Source: Prochlorococcus sp. AG-424-E20
GTDB taxonomy: Bacteria > Cyanobacteriota > Cyanobacteriia > PCC-6307 > Cyanobiaceae
Assembly: GCA_003213355.1 (NCBI GenBank)
Contig: QCND01000009.1
Span: 1-33,379 of the forward strand
DNA length: 33,379 bases
Direction of reading: 5' to 3'
Both the position numbers and the translations under genes were made by a program. The notes beneath the pieces are model-generated. The model was not told the origin of the DNA and did no database searches. It was given only the letters and a program-made list of their open reading frames with translations. This document shows, one piece after another, positions 397-8,514 of this stretch (position 1 is the stretch's first letter; each line of letters opens with the position of its first letter).

Positions 397-1098
397 TAAC
401 CATTACTTATTAATTTGTTTTTTGCAATAGCCTTAATAATAAATTATCTACTTAGATCTGAAAACAAAAAAAGAAATTTTAAGCTCGACCTTTATTTCTC
501 CTAATCACTAATTATTTCTTTAGGAAAGCCTAAGTAACCTCCTGAAAATCGCTTACGATTTGTCCAGTAAAATTCAACTAACTCTCTTGTGGGGCTTGTT
601 ATTAGCGCTTCTCTTCCACCTTCTAGTCCGTTTGAAAGCTTTAGGCTCTTTGTCGACTCCCAGCTTGAAGTGCTTGAAGATTCCATTAGATGCTCCAGTT
701 GATTGGTTGATTAAATACGCCAAGATCCCTATTCCTCTGGTGCCTTTTTCATTAATCATGCTCAGCAAATTAAATGATTTTGTTAGAGTGGGTGAAGGGA
801 AATTGAGACTCATCGATGCGATCGAAGTGTATTATTATAGTACATTAGTACCAGGCAATGTCAATTTTCTTTCCTTGATGGCTTAAAATAAACTTGCCTA
901 TTCGATTCAATTATATACGTATTTTTATTACTATTTAATGAATAAATATAGAAATAAATTTTTTTATTTAATGTAAAATCTTATTATTCAATTCAAAAAT
1001 TATACTAATAAAATATACTCCAATTATATATACAATTAAAATTATTTAAATCTTTAAAAATTATACGAATATTTTTAACTAGAATAGAAATATTAATT

Positions 1099-1293
1099 CT
1101 AGGTAAATGTAAACTTATCTATTACTAGAATCTCTTGCTCTGAGAAATCACTAGCAGATATGCAATTTATCCATTCTTTATACTCTTGGGCAATTGCTAA
1201 TTGATCCCTTGGACTTACCTCTACTGTTCTTTTTAAAACATGAGATAAACCTTTGACTAATAAATCTTCTATGCTTTTTGGATCTTCTTGCAT
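1099..1293 (-). CDS. small hypothetical protein (64 aa)
   Basis: Complete ORF; contains DQLAIAQEYKEWINCI, similar to the 25325..25555 product. Confidence 0.65.
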   Translation of the reverse strand: MQEDPKSIEDLLVKGLSHVLKRTVEVSPRDQLAIAQEYKEWINCISASDFSEQEILVIDKFTFT

Positions 1294-1403: not shown

Positions 1404-1745
1404 TTATGATGCATTCGTATTTTTTCTCTTATCTATTGATGGTATAAAACCTAATTCTTCAATTTGTTCAACTAATGTGAGCTTGGTATCTATTTTATTT
1501 GATTTCATATAAATTGTATTGGAATTTATTTTACTATCGTTTTCATATGACTCTTTAGATTCTTTTTTTATAACTATATTGTTACTTATAGATTTTGTTA
1601 GATTATTAATCATATCAATATTTATTAAATACAATGAAAATGTAATACCAATTAGAACTAGAAAAATATTATGAACGAAAAAATAAGAGAGAATAAATGT
1701 CGGAGCTAAATACTCTATCAACTGATTTATTTTAATCTTTTTCAT
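1404..1745 (-). CDS. small hypothetical membrane protein (113 aa)
   Basis: Hydrophobic N-terminal half, C-terminal LVEQIEELGFIPSIDKRKNTNAS; starts 2 nt after the upstream gene's stop. Confidence 0.7.
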   Translation of the reverse strand: MKKIKINQLIEYLAPTFILSYFFVHNIFLVLIGITFSLYLINIDMINNLTKSISNNIVIKKESKESYENDSKINSNTIYMKSNKIDTKLTLVEQIEELGFIPSIDKRKNTNAS

Positions 1746-1747
1746 AA

Positions 1748-2068
1748 TTAGGCGACATCCTCTTGAGTTCTGTTGTTTTGTCTTTCTATTAAGGTAAGAT
1801 CATAGGAAGATTGTATTTGATTGCTATAATCTAAATCATCTATGAATCTTGATAGAGATGCTTTATTTTGCATCCATTTACGCCTTATTGTTTTAGGTAA
1901 ATCAGGCAGATCGACCTCTTTCTTGTTAAGTGACTTTATATATCGTTTTCTTTGCCCACTGTCTACTGTCGAGCTGTAGGTTTCATCGTATTGAAAGACC
2001 TGCTTTTGGCTGTCTCTTGACTCTGTAATGGCCATCAGCTCTGAAAGACTTCTAATAAATGGAATCAT
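1748..2068 (-). CDS. hypothetical protein (106 aa)
   Basis: Complete ORF; its ATG overlaps the upstream sORF stop in an ATGA junction. Confidence 0.6.
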   Translation of the reverse strand: MIPFIRSLSELMAITESRDSQKQVFQYDETYSSTVDSGQRKRYIKSLNKKEVDLPDLPKTIRRKWMQNKASLSRFIDDLDYSNQIQSSYDLTLIERQNNRTQEDVA

Positions 2069-2226
2069 GCTGCATACCTATCCTTATCGTTTTTGTTTAG
2101 ACTATTTTTAGATTTTTTATCTTTTTTATAGGCATTTATATAGTGTACGTCGTAGGACCCTAATCCTTCTTTCTTTGGGTTGTACAAATGGATGAATCCA
2201 TTTCTAGAATTTAAATTCTTATTCAT
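2065..2226 (-). CDS. short hypothetical protein (53 aa), absent from ORF track
   Basis: Reads MNKNLNSRNGFIHLYNPKKEGLGSYDVHYINAYKKDKKSKNSLNKNDKDRYAA*; TGA overlaps the next ATG. Confidence 0.5.
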   Translation of the reverse strand: MNKNLNSRNGFIHLYNPKKEGLGSYDVHYINAYKKDKKSKNSLNKNDKDRYAA

Positions 2227-2230
2227 AATT

Positions 2231-2404
2231 TCAAGCCACTTTCCTTTGAAATTTGTTCTCGTTCAAATTCTCCATGCAGCCAGGAACTTTAACCTTGTAT
2301 TTCTCCAGTAATGCCTTTGTGATCCCTTGCTCTAAGGTGTTAATGTCGTCGTTTTTTGATTTTATTTGTTCAGGGATCCTAGATCTAAAGTTGATGCTTT
2401 TCAT
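2231..2404 (-). CDS. short hypothetical protein (57 aa), absent from ORF track
   Basis: Reads MKSINFRSRIPEQIKSKNDDINTLEQGITKALLEKYKVKVPGCMENLNENKFQRKVA*; 4-nt gap to next ORF. Confidence 0.5.
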   Translation of the reverse strand: MKSINFRSRIPEQIKSKNDDINTLEQGITKALLEKYKVKVPGCMENLNENKFQRKVA

Positions 2405-2445
2405 TTTGAATAATAGTAAAGGATAAATACTTTTTAGGGTAAGCG

Positions 2446-3195
2446 CTAGACAAGCGACTCAATCTTCTCTCTGTTCGTTAGTAATTTACTTAGTTTTTTA
2501 TTTTCATCCTGAAGATTGTTGATGACTTTTTTGTAAGTCTCGATCTTTTCTTTTAGGGATTTAATCTTTTCGCTTTCTGTCTTTTGGGAGGTTTTTTTTG
2601 CCTTTTTATTGCCTCCCTTCACCAAGCCCCTTACCGTAGCTTCTGTCATTCTTTCTCCATTTTCAACTGCCTCGAAAACTTTTTGCCTCTCCTTGTCGGT
2701 CACTCCTTTGCTTCCCATTAAAGCCAATGACCTGGGCGTTAGCGACGCAAGCAAGTTGTCGTTTATGTCAGAGCCACCTAGCCAGTTCGTGTATGCACTT
2801 ACAAGGTCGATTGCAAATCTTTCTGAGCAATTAATAGCTCCAGACTTTAAGAAGGCTCTCCAGTTCCCAGGCTTGATATTACTCTTTATGTCGGAGAGGT
2901 TCGCCGCTACAGCCCTAAGGGACTGCCCAACGCAGCTCAATTCCTCGTTGATTTCGACAACTGACTCTTTGACGTACTCCACCTGCGCGGGCACGAGCCC
3001 CTTGGTGACTTCGCTATTGAGCGGAATATTTGCTAAGTCAACCACCTCCGTAGGCGATAATTCCATGGGTTTAGCTAAATACGTATTCAATATACGCTTT
3101 GTGACGAACCGGAACAATGGGTACTTATGTACTATCTTTATCTGTCTTTTGCTGTTTATTCTCGTATCTTGTTGGTATAACCTAATCTGTTTCAA
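2446..3195 (-). CDS. DUF3102/ParB-like helix-turn-helix type protein with C-terminal coiled coil
   Basis: SLRAVAANLSDIKSNIKPGNWRAFLKSGAINCSERFAIDL...LASLTPRSLALMGSKGVTDKERQKVFEAVENGERMTEATVRGLV resembles the 'G.f..WL...g.s.RtA...m..A' / 'alalLa.ps....r..a...a.GekvT...vk.l' layout of DUF3102-type proteins; Lys/Glu-rich coiled-coil tail. Start codon is TTG and uncertain. Confidence 0.6.
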   Translation of the reverse strand: MKQIRLYQQDTRINSKRQIKIVHKYPLFRFVTKRILNTYLAKPMELSPTEVVDLANIPLNSEVTKGLVPAQVEYVKESVVEINEELSCVGQSLRAVAANLSDIKSNIKPGNWRAFLKSGAINCSERFAIDLVSAYTNWLGGSDINDNLLASLTPRSLALMGSKGVTDKERQKVFEAVENGERMTEATVRGLVKGGNKKAKKTSQKTESEKIKSLKEKIETYKKVINNLQDENKKLSKLLTNREKIESLV

Positions 3196-3215
3196 ATTTT
3201 TGCGATAGTATAATA

Positions 3216-3246
3216 AAACATTTTATTTATTCCAAATAAAATGTTT
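3216..3246. promoter_or_regulatory. perfect 13-bp inverted repeat (aaacattttattt - attcc - aaataaaatgttt)
   Basis: Arms 3216-3228 and 3234-3246 are exact reverse complements; located ~21 bp upstream of the 3195 minus-strand start. Confidence 0.6.
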
Positions 3247-3709
3247 AAACTTCTGACTTTGCAGTGTGCTGAGGCTTAATTCTTTTCTGAATACAAATAT
3301 TTTTTGAATTAGCATGAAATTCTTGTATGATTTATTATAATATCCTAATTTGTTATTCGTTTCTGTTTTAATAGTGAGCCAAGGAGAGCTTTCTCCTTTT
3401 GACGCGTTAGGTATTTATACTGATTTTTTATTTTGTCATCGTTTAGACGTTCAGCTTTAAATACTCGATTGTTGATTTAGGATTTAATTAATTTTATCGC
3501 TCGAGCTTTTTGATAACGAGGGTTCAGGAGATACTTCTTTGTCGTAATCCTTTCAAGCTAAGTCGATCACTTCTTATTCGTTTATATCAACACTGATGTA
3601 TCTCTAGGACATAAATACACTGCTTAAGTTGTTGTCTCAACAATTCAATTTTATTTTGTTTTCAATCCATTCATTACAGCTTTATAAGATCTTAAGGCAA
3701 TTTTCTATT

Positions 3710-3778
3710 ATGATTCCCCCCCTTGTAGAGAATGAGGAGGTCAGAGAAGAGATGATTCCTGATGAAAATAATCACTAA
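3710..3778 (+). CDS. possible 22-aa sORF overlapping the start of the 2OG oxygenase gene
   Basis: MIPPLVENEEVREEMIPDENNH*; frame is open from ~3608; GAGGAGG at 3734-3740 lies inside it. Confidence 0.25.
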   Translation: MIPPLVENEEVREEMIPDENNH

Positions 3779-4412
3779 AATACCACCCGTAACTCCTTTT
3801 ATTGAAGTAAAACTAGATAAAGAGATTATTGATTACCTTTGGAAGATAATCAATAATAGCAAGACAGAGAATACAAGCCATAAAAAATATTTAGCGGGTA
3901 ATATCTCAAAGAGTTATTTATTAGAAGATATTAATAATTTTTTCTTTAAAAATGTTTGTGTATCATTGATTACAAATTTTCGTCAAAATAATCTAGGAAT
4001 AGATCCAAGTACTGTTAATCTCTCATTCAAGAATGATCATCAAATTGCTTTCAAATTGACTAGTTTATGGGTTAATTACCAATATAAAACAGAGTTTAAT
4101 CCCTTTCATGATCACGGTGGTGTATACTCTTTTGCTATTTGGCTGAAGATTCCATACGATAGTAAACAGCAACAAAAGCTACCTATATTTGCTGATATGG
4201 ATGATAAAAATAAAAAGGCCGGAGATTTCGAATTCGAATATCATGACTCACTTGGAGGTATTAGAAATATTTCATATAAACTTTCTAAAAATTACGAAGG
4301 AACTATGCTTTTTTTTCCTGCAAAACTAAGACATTGTGTTTATCCATTTTATGGAACTGATGAACCAAGGATTTCTATCGCAGGTAATTTAAATTATTAT
4401 CTAGAGGATTGA
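3762..4412 (+). CDS. putative 2OG-Fe(II) oxygenase, cyanophage/picocyanobacterial type
   Basis: FNPFHDHGGVYSFAIWLKIP (first metal ligands) and LRHCVYPFYGTDEPRISIAGN (distal His...Arg). Confidence 0.7.
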   Translation: MKIITKIPPVTPFIEVKLDKEIIDYLWKIINNSKTENTSHKKYLAGNISKSYLLEDINNFFFKNVCVSLITNFRQNNLGIDPSTVNLSFKNDHQIAFKLTSLWVNYQYKTEFNPFHDHGGVYSFAIWLKIPYDSKQQQKLPIFADMDDKNKKAGDFEFEYHDSLGGIRNISYKLSKNYEGTMLFFPAKLRHCVYPFYGTDEPRISIAGNLNYYLED

Positions 4413-4639
4413 AACATCTTATTTATTGAAAATCTTCTATATTTAAAATCTTACTCTCTAAGTATGAAAATTTATAAATGACAGATGCAAATCATTAGAT
4501 AACAATAAAAAACACCATTGAGTATAAAATTCTTATATGACTAATTCTCCTTTTTTAGTGCAAACATTCCTGTAATCTTTATCACTTGGAAGTTCTATCC
4601 ATTTGGATCTTATTGTTTTCCTCTTGTTCTTTAGTTAAT

Positions 4640-4862
4640 AGCTACTTAGTCTTAGGTTGTTGATTTATCAAGATTCCTGTGGAAGATTAACTGATAGAGG
4701 GATGTAGGTATTAGCAATCGCGCTCAGCATTGTTTTCGATATCAATTTCTTGTGAAACCTTTTATAGATGTCAGTCAAAATTTTACTTGAAGTCTTTGGC
4801 GCTATTGGAGATTTAGGCTAAAGATCATGAAATTAGACTTGTTGAAGATAATCAGGGACTCC
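4640..4862 (+). pseudogene. glyQ: glyQ fragment (degenerate partial copy of glycyl-tRNA synthetase alpha subunit)
   Basis: 4716-4760 encodes NRAQHCFRYQFLVKP vs [15 protein letters not shown] in intact GlyQ; 4817-4852 encodes AKDHEIRLVEDN vs [12 protein letters not shown]; intervening frameshifts and stops. 4681-4862 aligns collinearly with ~6412-6596. Left edge uncertain. Confidence 0.88.
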
Positions 4863-4890
4863 AAAAATAAGCGATGGGTTCTTATCCTTT

Positions 4891-5808
4891 TCAATTAAAA
4901 GAAGATAATAATCCCATAACAGTTCGAATATGACGATCGTATATGCTTGATAATTCTGAATGATCAAGATAAAAATGGCTTCCATGGTAACCAACACTCT
5001 TATGAAAATCCGCCTCTATTGAAAAACGATTGATAATATTTATATTGGATGGAAGGTTCTTTGTATATTTTTTTAGATGTTTGCTAAAGAAAATATCTTC
5101 ATTCTCATTAGGATTTGAAGTTTCATTTGAACAGATTTTTTCCATTATTTCGCAATTTCTAATTGATAGTCCTCCATTACCCATTAATAGTCCAGGACTT
5201 AAGTCCTCATTATATTTCTGTGTTATCCAAGTATTTCCATTTGCTTCTCTTGTCTTGTTATTGAAATGAGGAATACTTATACATCTTGATTTTCCTCTTG
5301 AAAATAATGCGCCTATATAATCATAATTAAATTTTGTGAATTCTAAAGGCTCTATTAATAGAGTATCTGTTTGAAAAATTAGGACTTCTTTGGCTATTAA
5401 GCTTGACCAGAAATTTGAAGACTTTAACAAATTATTATAGAGATCTATATTGATTGAATCGATTTCCAAAGCATTTATTGTTATTAAATTTGTAAAATCA
5501 AGAATATCTAAAAATAATTTCTTGGTATCCGAGAGTGATTTTTGGGTGGTATAAATTTGAATAGGTAGATTTAAATCAGTCATTAAAAGTGTATTTAGTA
5601 CTGAAAACCTAAGTATTTCATTAGGTCTATCATCTATTATCAATCCATATCGCTTATTGCTAATATCTAAATTGTTTTTTAATGATCTAGAGAGATGTCT
5701 ATCTGCCCATGGGTTTAAGAATCTTCGCAGTATATAAATTCCATGACTTTCAAAAATCTCTTTTCTATATTTTTTGAACTCAGGCGTGAAATCTTTTGGC
5801 TCTATCAA
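4891..5808 (-). CDS. DUF5672-like (glycosyltransferase-like) protein
   Basis: VLIFQTDTLLIEPLEFTKFNYDYIGA, GNGGLSIRNCEIMEKI and NEDIFFSKHL motifs. Confidence 0.75.
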   Translation of the reverse strand: MIEPKDFTPEFKKYRKEIFESHGIYILRRFLNPWADRHLSRSLKNNLDISNKRYGLIIDDRPNEILRFSVLNTLLMTDLNLPIQIYTTQKSLSDTKKLFLDILDFTNLITINALEIDSINIDLYNNLLKSSNFWSSLIAKEVLIFQTDTLLIEPLEFTKFNYDYIGALFSRGKSRCISIPHFNNKTREANGNTWITQKYNEDLSPGLLMGNGGLSIRNCEIMEKICSNETSNPNENEDIFFSKHLKKYTKNLPSNINIINRFSIEADFHKSVGYHGSHFYLDHSELSSIYDRHIRTVMGLLSSFN

Positions 5809-6242
5809 ATCAATAAATAATTTTCTAATTAAATTAATTTAGATTGCTAACGCTCTCTTTAATACTTATTGATGTAAATATCAAAATTTAAAAAAGTTAT
5901 AACCTCTTTAATTCTTTAAGTTAAAGTCCAATTGTCTGACTTTTACCAGCTTTTCGAATTGAATCTAGAGTGAATTCTTAAACTGTTCTCAATAAGTCTC
6001 AAAAATCAAAGGAGCTTGTTGTTACCTGTTTGATTATTCATGGATATTTTCGTGTCATTGATTACACAAATAGATAGGATTAGTTGAGTGAAAGAAATAG
6101 GAGAGCAAATCCAAATTAAGATTATGCTCTCTCCTCGTTCTCATTACACATCACTCATCTGTTCTCCTAAGTTAGTTTTGAATCGCTGTTCTCCCCTTGT
6201 GCTCCTAAATCTGAGCTTCAAAATCATTGGGAGGACTGTATA

Positions 6243-7115
6243 GTGTACTTTCAGGACATAATTTCTAGCCTCAATAATTTCTGGAGTGAGAAAGGTTGTT
6301 TGCTTCTACAGCCATACGATTTAGAGAAGGGCGCAGGGACGATGAGCCCTCATTCTTTTTTAAGAGCGATAGGACCTGAGCCTTGGGCTGTAGCTTACCC
6401 AGAACCCTGTCGAAGACCAACTGATGGTAGGTATGGAGACAATCCAAATAGAGCGCAGCATTATTTTCAATATCAAGTTCTTATCAAGCCCTCTTTAGAC
6501 GGTATTCAAGAAATTTATTTGTCTTCTCTTGAAGCTTTGGGGATTTCGGCTAAAGACCACGACATTAGATTTGTTGAAGATAATTGGGAATCTCCAACTT
6601 TGGGCGCCTGGGGAGTGGGTTGGGAAGTTTGGCTTGATGGGATGGAAGTTACCCAATTTACTTATTTTCAACAATGTGGAGGTCTTGATTGCAAGCCTGT
6701 TTCAATTGAGATCACTTATGGCTTGGAGAGATTGGCAATGTATCTACAAAATGTCGAAAGTATTTGGGAACTTTCCTGGAATAAAAAGACTAAATATGGT
6801 GATATCTGGCTTCCTTTTGAAAAAGGTCAATGTAAGTATAATTTTGAAGAATCTAACTCGGAAAATTTAAGGAAACTTTTTGAAATTTATGAGGAAGAGG
6901 CTCATCAATTAATCGCTAAAAAACTACCTGCACCTTGTCTTGATTACGTTTTAAAATGCAGTCATACATTTAATTTATTAGAAGCAAGAGGGGTTATTTC
7001 TGTTACTGAGAGAACTAAGATTATTGCACGAATTCGATCTTTAGCTCGTAAGGTTGCTGAAGCTTGGCTAGAGGAAAGAGATGCCCTTGGCTTCCCTCTT
7101 TGTGCCGAAAATTAA
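6243..7115 (+). CDS. glyQ: glycyl-tRNA synthetase alpha subunit
   Basis: [73 protein letters not shown] start with upstream gggagga. Confidence 0.98.
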
Positions 7116-7266
7116 TTAACTCTAAGTAATAATTTTAGATTAATTCGCTAACAAACAGTACGAATAGTATATATCGCTGTATAAAAAGCTACCTCTAAAA
7201 GTTTTCGCTCTGGAATGTCTTATTGAATACACTATTATTCTGATGACATATTTGTGTGAGGACACA

Positions 7267-8514
7267 ATGAAGCTTTTTCAGCGTTTGCTGGTAGCTCCTG
7301 CTGCTTTGGGCCTTATGGCACCATTAGCTGCAAATGCCGACGTTACTTCGGTATCTAACGAGTCAGATCTAAGTTCTGAAGTTATTCAAGCTCGTGTTGA
7401 TGGCGTTGAAGCTCAACTCGGCGAAATAATGGCTGGTCAGTTCTCTTCATCTACAAAGATGAGCGGAAAGGCTGCTTTCATAACTGGTTATGTTGATGAT
7501 GATGCTGAGTCAGATACTGACAGCATCACTATGGAATATATGTATCAGTTGAACATGAACACCAGTTTTACTGGTGAAGACCTTCTTTATACAAGGATTA
7601 AGGCGGGTAACGTATCTGATCATTTCGTAGACAAAGGTCAAGGTACTTATCTTTCAGCGGGTAAGAACACATCAGATGCTTTAAAAGTTGACAAGATTTG
7701 GTATCAATTCCCAGTTGGCGATACTCTTACAGTTTGGGTTGGACCAAAAATTGAGAACTACTACATGCTTGCAAGTTCTCCTTCCATCTATAAGCCAGTA
7801 ACTAAGCAATTTAGTCTTGGTGGCAATGGAACTGTTTATGGTTCAAGCACTAAAGCAGGTTTTGGCGCTGCATGGACACAGCAAACTGAAGATCCTTCTG
7901 ATGGTAGATGGGCACTAAGTGCAGCATATACAAGTCAGGGTGGAGCAAAGTCTGAAGAAGGCCAAGGTTTATTTGGAGATGATGCTAAGTCAGCTTTGTT
8001 AACGAAGCTTGAATATGGCACACCACAATGGCAAGTATCTGGAGCTGTTGCTTTCAAAGATAATGGCTGGTCAGATAGCTATTTCACAACAGCTAAAGGC
8101 AAGTCAAGAGCTTCAGATAGTTCTGAAACTGCTATTGGTTTGAGAGCATATTGGAGACCTGATAATTCAGGCGCAGTTCCTTCTGTTCAGCTTGGTTATG
8201 ACACTTCTAGTATCGATGATGCTGGAACTGGTTTTGCAGATGAGGCGTCAGGTTGGATGGTTGGCCTTAATTGGAAGGACCTATTCATTGATGGAAACAG
8301 AGCAGGACTTGCTGTTGGCTCAAGAGTTAGTGCTACAAACATCGTTGGCGGTGGCGAAGATCCTTCAGAGGATAACTCTGTTTGGGAAGCTTATTACTCC
8401 TTCAAAGTTAATGACGGCGTAACAGTTACCCCTGCTGTATTTGGCAGTACTGATGTCGAAGCTGATGGAAAAGACGTCACAGGAGCAGTTCTTCTAACTG
8501 AATTCAGATTCTAA
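7267..8514 (+). CDS. outer-membrane porin (cyanobacterial Som/OprB-like, marine picocyanobacterial type)
   Basis: Signal peptide MKLFQRLLVAPAALGLMAPLAANA; beta-barrel-like alternation; C-terminal TEFRF. Start at 7267 fits better than 7243. Confidence 0.85.
   Translation: MKLFQRLLVAPAALGLMAPLAANADVTSVSNESDLSSEVIQARVDGVEAQLGEIMAGQFSSSTKMSGKAAFITGYVDDDAESDTDSITMEYMYQLNMNTSFTGEDLLYTRIKAGNVSDHFVDKGQGTYLSAGKNTSDALKVDKIWYQFPVGDTLTVWVGPKIENYYMLASSPSIYKPVTKQFSLGGNGTVYGSSTKAGFGAAWTQQTEDPSDGRWALSAAYTSQGGAKSEEGQGLFGDDAKSALLTKLEYGTPQWQVSGAVAFKDNGWSDSYFTTAKGKSRASDSSETAIGLRAYWRPDNSGAVPSVQLGYDTSSIDDAGTGFADEASGWMVGLNWKDLFIDGNRAGLAVGSRVSATNIVGGGEDPSEDNSVWEAYYSFKVNDGVTVTPAVFGSTDVEADGKDVTGAVLLTEFRF

Follow-up and report, generated by a model that had tools for sequence, protein, structure and literature searches.

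We interpret a run of five short genes in a Prochlorococcus genome as an operon that is probably controlled by LexA, fixed in one clade and descended from the control module of an integrative element, with the first gene (g1) encoding its autoregulator and the following four (g2 to g5) encoding effectors that would be made in a pulse; we put the probability of this reading at about 0.6. The window analyzed is a whole contig of 33,379 bases from a genome that is approximately 70% complete. All support for the operon reading is sequence-based, and background statistics were drawn from 400 kb of a relative (G003). The five minus-strand open reading frames described in the initial annotation are present where it had placed them, separated by gaps of 41, 4, −4 (an ATGA junction) and 2 nt. 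One boundary had to be revised: the TTG start of g1 at position 3195 was dropped in favor of the ATG at 3066, because several orthologs carry in-frame stops in the LexA-box region that lies between the two codons and because this DNA is a conserved, noncoding promoter stretch.

The initial annotation had proposed looking for the same five-gene order elsewhere. Using tblastn, we found all of g1 to g5 beside glyQ, in the same order and with nearly the same spacing, in 15 of 20 related loci, which argues that these ORFs are more than chance. A looser search recovered g1, g3, g4 and g5 at 21 of 21 loci and g2 at 18 of them. Within the genus, g1 and g4 occur in an identical set of 28 out of 41 genomes, including all seven that are at least 99% complete; the g1 orthologs, which share 82–94% identity, come from single cells (AG-402 and AG-363, for instance) as well as from the closed genomes G002 to G007. 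Four genomes that are at least 90% complete lack both g1 and g4: two of them also lack glyQ, and in two (G019 and G023) the contig ends within about 165 nt of glyQ. Because the absences that we inspected coincide with contig ends, they look like gaps of assembly rather than losses. Judging from its relatives, we take the genus to be of the low-light LLI type, and the five genes appear to form one operon that is fixed in this clade. It had also been suggested that the unit could be composite, with g5 a common picocyanobacterial hypothetical; this idea was abandoned, since g5 accompanies g1 to g4 wherever the region is assembled and is no general picocyanobacterial hypothetical. The operon copy is not itself mobile: it occupies a single locus across the clade, contains no integrase, and no direct repeats or element ends were identified for it.

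Overall pN/pS was below 1 for each gene (g2, 0.64; g3, 0.33; g4, 0.40; g5, 0.55), with the lowest value, 0.19, for g1, where the calculation takes in part of the noncoding leader at some loci. As proteins, g2 and g5 are constrained only weakly. These values bear on the possibility that an old integrative element is decaying here and that the run is its remnant, retained through common descent and without present function. Such decay would fit the loss of integrase and polymerase, the fast evolution of g2 and g5 and the degenerate state of the g1 palindrome described below; however, the reading frames stay open in about 20 species despite near-saturated synonymous change (pS 0.53–0.70), g1 and g3 are under strong constraint, and the promoter block has been preserved next to upstream DNA that is unalignable. 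We consider a functionless remnant quite unlikely.

Alignment of the 330 bases upstream of the ATG at 3066 revealed a sharp block in all 21 loci, beyond which the upstream DNA could not be aligned. The block reads AGTACAnnnGTAyC, two bases, TTGTTC, 17 bases, TATATT, and its first 14 bases agree with the published cyanobacterial LexA box, given as RGTACNNNDGTWCB or AGTACWNWTGTACT (PMC3091678). In the window, the LexA-type box AGTACATAAGTACC (3120 to 3133, minus strand) lies 67 nt upstream of the g1 ATG, and it is found at the same place in 20 of 20 orthologs. The promoter beside it (3089 to 3117, minus strand), with hexamers read off the sequence, consists of a −35 element TTGTTC (3117–3112) and a −10 element TATATT (3094–3089), separated by a 17-bp spacer that contains a degenerate g1-type palindrome (CGGTTCGTCA). 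With a matrix built solely from the published picocyanobacterial sites quoted in PMC3091678, the window site scored 15.9, as high as none of 262 background upstream regions, and the box at −67 was the best site in all 21 loci, each with p ≤ 0.008 relative to the 262 background regions. In about half of the orthologs, the second half-site reads GTAT instead of GTAC. Genome-wide, the strict LexA consensus was not enriched over a reversed control (12 vs. 30 matches), so that the LexA argument rests on position and conservation. The repressor gene lexA was found in G000 and five relatives (E about 1e-22), and the lexA promoter of the genus has two LexA-type boxes of the same kind. We infer from this promoter that the operon would be under LexA control and induced by DNA damage. 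A literature search with NATL2A locus tags near lexA returned the LexA paper alone (PMC3091678). Marine Synechococcus are reported to induce recA, lexA, umuC and many genomic-island genes with mitomycin C (PMC3744912), so that damage induction of the operon is promising to test; g1 to g5 are not mentioned in the passages on this treatment.

One other site in the window scored at least 11, a LexA-type box at 839 to 852 (minus strand) that aligned in 18 further loci and lies in a promoter with −35 TTGACA (864–859) and −10 TACTAT (842–837). Behind this promoter lies an LLI-specific gene of 61 aa (501 to 686, minus strand), the frame of which is conserved in the aligned loci; it was found in 3 of 101 family genomes, all of them of the LLI genus. 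The contig start (1–134) lies inside a truncated gene, within a tandem repeat of about 18 nt (KPVEED/E type) to which relatives give repeated matches.

The product of g1 (206 aa; 2446 to 3066, minus strand) had been described as DUF3102/ParB-like, and the first half of this description was upheld. Its AF2 model is all-helical and confident (pLDDT 90.4), and Foldseek matched it in BFVD to a DUF3102 protein of an uncultured virus (A0A0F7LAM6; E 8.5e-6, probability 1.0, TM 0.49); for the ParB half, there was no Pfam ParB match. The models and the family alignment point to a DUF3102 fold with a C-terminal coiled coil, and we predict g1 to be a probable autoregulator. The window protein stayed below the cut-off for Pfam DUF3102 (PF11300), and one of 20 g1 family members touched this family, at E 0.018; because the gathering score is unmet, we do not file g1 as a member of PF11300. 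Foldseek against the PDB gave no match, and a profile search of PDB sequences yielded nothing but coiled coils and SAM domains (E ≥ 0.09). The initial annotation had also proposed a search in viruses: neither g1 nor a paralog matched any of 50,697 phage records, and neither g1, its family alignment nor the element polymerase, membrane protein and integrase introduced below matched IMG/VR viral contigs, in scans that, run with single proteins, recover mainly close relatives. A phage origin thus found no support by sequence in either collection.

Relatives of g1 are scattered among other genomes. Searching 300 family genomes, we found g1 paralogs over eight genera and up to four per genome, which is the pattern of a mobile gene. 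Several of them lie within picocyanobacterial integrative elements that carry a tyrosine recombinase and a T7-like RNA polymerase, as reflected in Phage_integrase and RNA_pol Pfam matches beside paralogs, and the recombinases beside the paralogs in five loci (L033, L035, L038, L041 and L046) form one family. An 8.9-kb element in G003 (L035, 5280–14190) contains a g1 paralog, a tyrosine recombinase (PF00589, 2.6e-8), an intact T7-like RNA polymerase of 813 aa (PF00940, 1.5e-36; 27% identity with the enzymes of cyanopodoviruses), a membrane protein and a protein of 291 aa that matches nothing in Pfam. The order 291-aa-type protein, polymerase, integrase is recurrent. Only 4 of the 16 polymerase-bearing loci that we examined contain a g1 paralog, which makes g1 a recurrent rather than a constant part of these elements. 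The element polymerase family was seen in 27 of 300 family genomes, and the elements belong to marine picocyanobacteria (L035 and L100–L111). As a group, elements that combine a tyrosine recombinase, a T7-like RNA polymerase and a DUF3102-fold protein look undescribed; we found no paper on them, an uncertain result with the original tycheposon description outside our coverage, and the group may overlap known cryptic elements. Other paralogs are found next to tRNA genes. At L040:6583-8974 (G092), a pair of tRNA-Arg copies spaced by 2.3 kb flanks one paralog; the interval contains no integrase and may represent a minimal non-autonomous element. In L036, L037 and L051, the paralogs adjoin tRNA-Ala(GGC) genes and are not followed by small genes.

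Upstream of 16 of 21 paralogs, for which start codons were picked by hand, lies a palindrome, TTGGACGA.TCGTCCAA, allowing up to 3 mismatches in 16 positions, as compared with 2 of 262 background regions; because the palindrome was recognized in these sequences first and counted afterwards, its p-values are descriptive. Its arms co-vary (TTGAACGA/TCGTTCAA and TTGGACAA/CTGTCCAA). The candidate operator of the L035 element, TTTGACGAGCTCGTCCAA, overlaps TTGACG, 17 bp from TAGAAC, as read by eye. Being in promoter position, the palindrome would look like an autoregulatory operator, and both autoregulation and a parS-like site fit. The fixed operon retains mainly the TCGTC half. A LexA-type site (p ≤ 0.004) at −41 to −96 was found in 10 of the 21 paralogs; with about half of them devoid of such a box, damage control is not universal in the g1 family. 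At L049:2690-2770 (G147), the g1 paralog is directly preceded by a perfect inverted repeat, the arms of which measure 33 bp, in place of the usual short palindrome. Small proteins encoded behind a probable autoregulator that has a palindromic operator are also what a toxin-antitoxin-like or partition (ParB-like) self-stabilizing module would present. Yet ParA was absent from the neighboring ORFs that we read, no ParB or toxin-antitoxin family was matched, there are four small proteins rather than a pair, and the nearest structural class of g1 is DUF3102, which makes such a module very improbable in our view.

Elements with g1-family genes use an integration site that directly borders the fixed operon, and this proximity supports our preferred reading that the operon descends from such an element. 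The site is the 5' end of glyQ (TAGTGTACTTTCAGGACA; 6241 to 6258, plus strand), which forms an 18-bp direct repeat at both ends of the G003 element; the repeats correspond to the first codons of glyQ and are single copy in genomes without the element. The site is empty in L003, L005, L008 and L020, and it holds a decayed element in G032. A degenerate second copy in the window (TGATGTATCTCTAGGACA; 3594 to 3611, plus strand) marks the edge of a 2.6-kb insertion (3612–6240) with a 2OG-Fe(II) oxygenase gene (3762–4412) and a DUF5672 gene (4891–5808); positions 3408–3614 and 6241–7300 are contiguous in the empty-site genomes L003 and L005. Related 2OG genes, in one or two copies, are found at the same spot in several relatives.

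The arrangement at glyQ could also be read as an anti-phage or anti-element defence cassette, for example one that guards the glyQ site against elements of the same family: the operon adjoins a hotspot of related elements, the g1 family is common to both, and a membrane protein together with small proteins is a common defence layout. The initial annotation had likened the run to mobile-element control or to defence/satellite modules, and while the former comparison stands, PADLOC gave no match of weight for the latter (best E 0.0039, over the coiled coil). Moreover, in G003 and G032 elements are found next to an operon that is intact, which means that the operon does not exclude them. We therefore rate a defence cassette as unlikely.

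The four genes downstream of g1 encode small proteins that fall outside the families of Pfam, NCBIfam, PHROGs and PADLOC. The g2 product (57 aa; 2231 to 2404, minus strand) is fast-evolving and ends in VA; that of g3 (53 aa; 2065 to 2226, minus strand) has the motif HLYNPKKEGLGSYDVHYIN and 15 invariant columns among 12 sequences and ends in AA. The g4 product (106 aa; 1748 to 2068, minus strand) carries the motifs DSGQRKRYIKSL and LDYNNQIQSSYDLTL, ends in DVA and was modeled by AF2 with low confidence (pLDDT 65); hhalign matched its middle part (DSGQRKRYIKSL) to the SGQRKRYLKTL tail of the element membrane protein at a probability of 92%. The g5 product (113 aa; 1404 to 1745, minus strand) has a hydrophobic N-terminal segment and ends in NAS in the window and mostly in AA or VA in orthologs. 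For g2, g3 and g5, no significant homolog was found in elements, g5 against the element membrane protein and g3 against small element proteins (P 0.003 over 22 columns) both being not significant. A sixth small gene (64 aa; 1099 to 1293, minus strand) lies 110 nt behind g5 and may be co-transcribed with g1 to g5. It is present in 20 loci, is at least as conserved as the five (pN/pS 0.19) and has relatives in element-bearing loci (L038, E 1.5e-20; L033, E 3.7e-6).

The C-termini of these proteins are unusual. VA or AA ends are shared by g2, g3, g4 and most g5 orthologs, and [AV]A ends occur in 2 of 268 background proteins. Among chained ORFs behind element paralogs, 9 of 29 end in AA, whereas the count in background chains is 2 of 129 (Fisher p 3e-6), and several of the AA-ending proteins behind paralogs are otherwise dissimilar. 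Tails of the AA/VA type resemble SsrA-like degrons, and their conservation in g2 to g5 suggests rapid proteolysis; the tails of g2 to g4 overlap the translation-start region of the next gene, and another constraint on them is possible. For comparison with the tmRNA tag, RF01851 was searched without a match in the incomplete genome.

Based on these findings, we propose that the operon's ancestor was the control module of elements with a tyrosine recombinase, often a T7-like RNA polymerase, a DUF3102-fold protein and small proteins. In such elements, g1-type proteins probably bind the palindrome overlapping the −35 and thereby regulate their own operon. Because the palindrome of the fixed copy is degenerate, we propose that LexA control dominates there: LexA would repress the operon from the box beside the −35, and DNA damage would relieve this repression. 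Damage would thereby trigger a burst of g2 to g5 synthesis, and the proteins would quickly be removed, their AA/VA C-termini acting as degrons for a ClpXP-type protease. Their likeliest role would be to transiently block or retune a process in the host, be it the cell cycle, replication or the takeover by a phage or element; our preferred guess is that they briefly halt division or replication, or that they control how a phage or element takes over. A more far-reaching version, which we regard as tentative and somewhat doubtful, is that g2 to g5 and their element relatives represent a new class of damage-induced, protease-tagged microproteins, and that the low-light clade has domesticated this programme and uses it, self-regulated through g1, as an SOS checkpoint; elements of the same family, with T7-like polymerases, would meanwhile still cycle through the adjacent glyQ site.

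Prochlorococcus is the most abundant photosynthetic organism, and to our knowledge SOS-induced effectors are almost unknown in it. Since the operon has a clean LexA-type promoter and is fixed in a clade that includes cultured strains, the idea of an SOS effector can be tested directly. The glyQ 5' end is a new place to seek genome plasticity, and the recurrence of AA C-termini in short, otherwise dissimilar proteins suggests a common mechanism of turnover.

In comparison with the cyanobacterial LexA/SOS regulon (PMC3091678; recA, lexA, umuDC), the box of the operon fits the consensus and adjoins the −35, and the genus has lexA with a like box; however, g1 to g5, as predicted members, are in none of the SOS gene sets that we found. 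With phage DUF3102 proteins (PF11300), g1 shares its predicted fold, whereas its sequence falls under the Pfam cut-off. SulA and YneA are small, short-lived division inhibitors induced by the SOS response. No sequence relation to the operon proteins was found, and the likeness of the operon to them lies in small size, a damage-type promoter, a hydrophobic member and C-termini that are predicted to resemble protease tags. Tycheposons and related tyrosine-integrase elements are known from picocyanobacteria (PMC10872708, PMC10187409). The window operon differs from them in having neither an integrase nor a tRNA border. Common ground lies in a tyrosine recombinase, site-specific integration and the occurrence of elements in Prochlorococcus and Synechococcus; the G003 element is set apart by its T7-like RNA polymerase and by its use of the glyQ 5' end rather than a tRNA.
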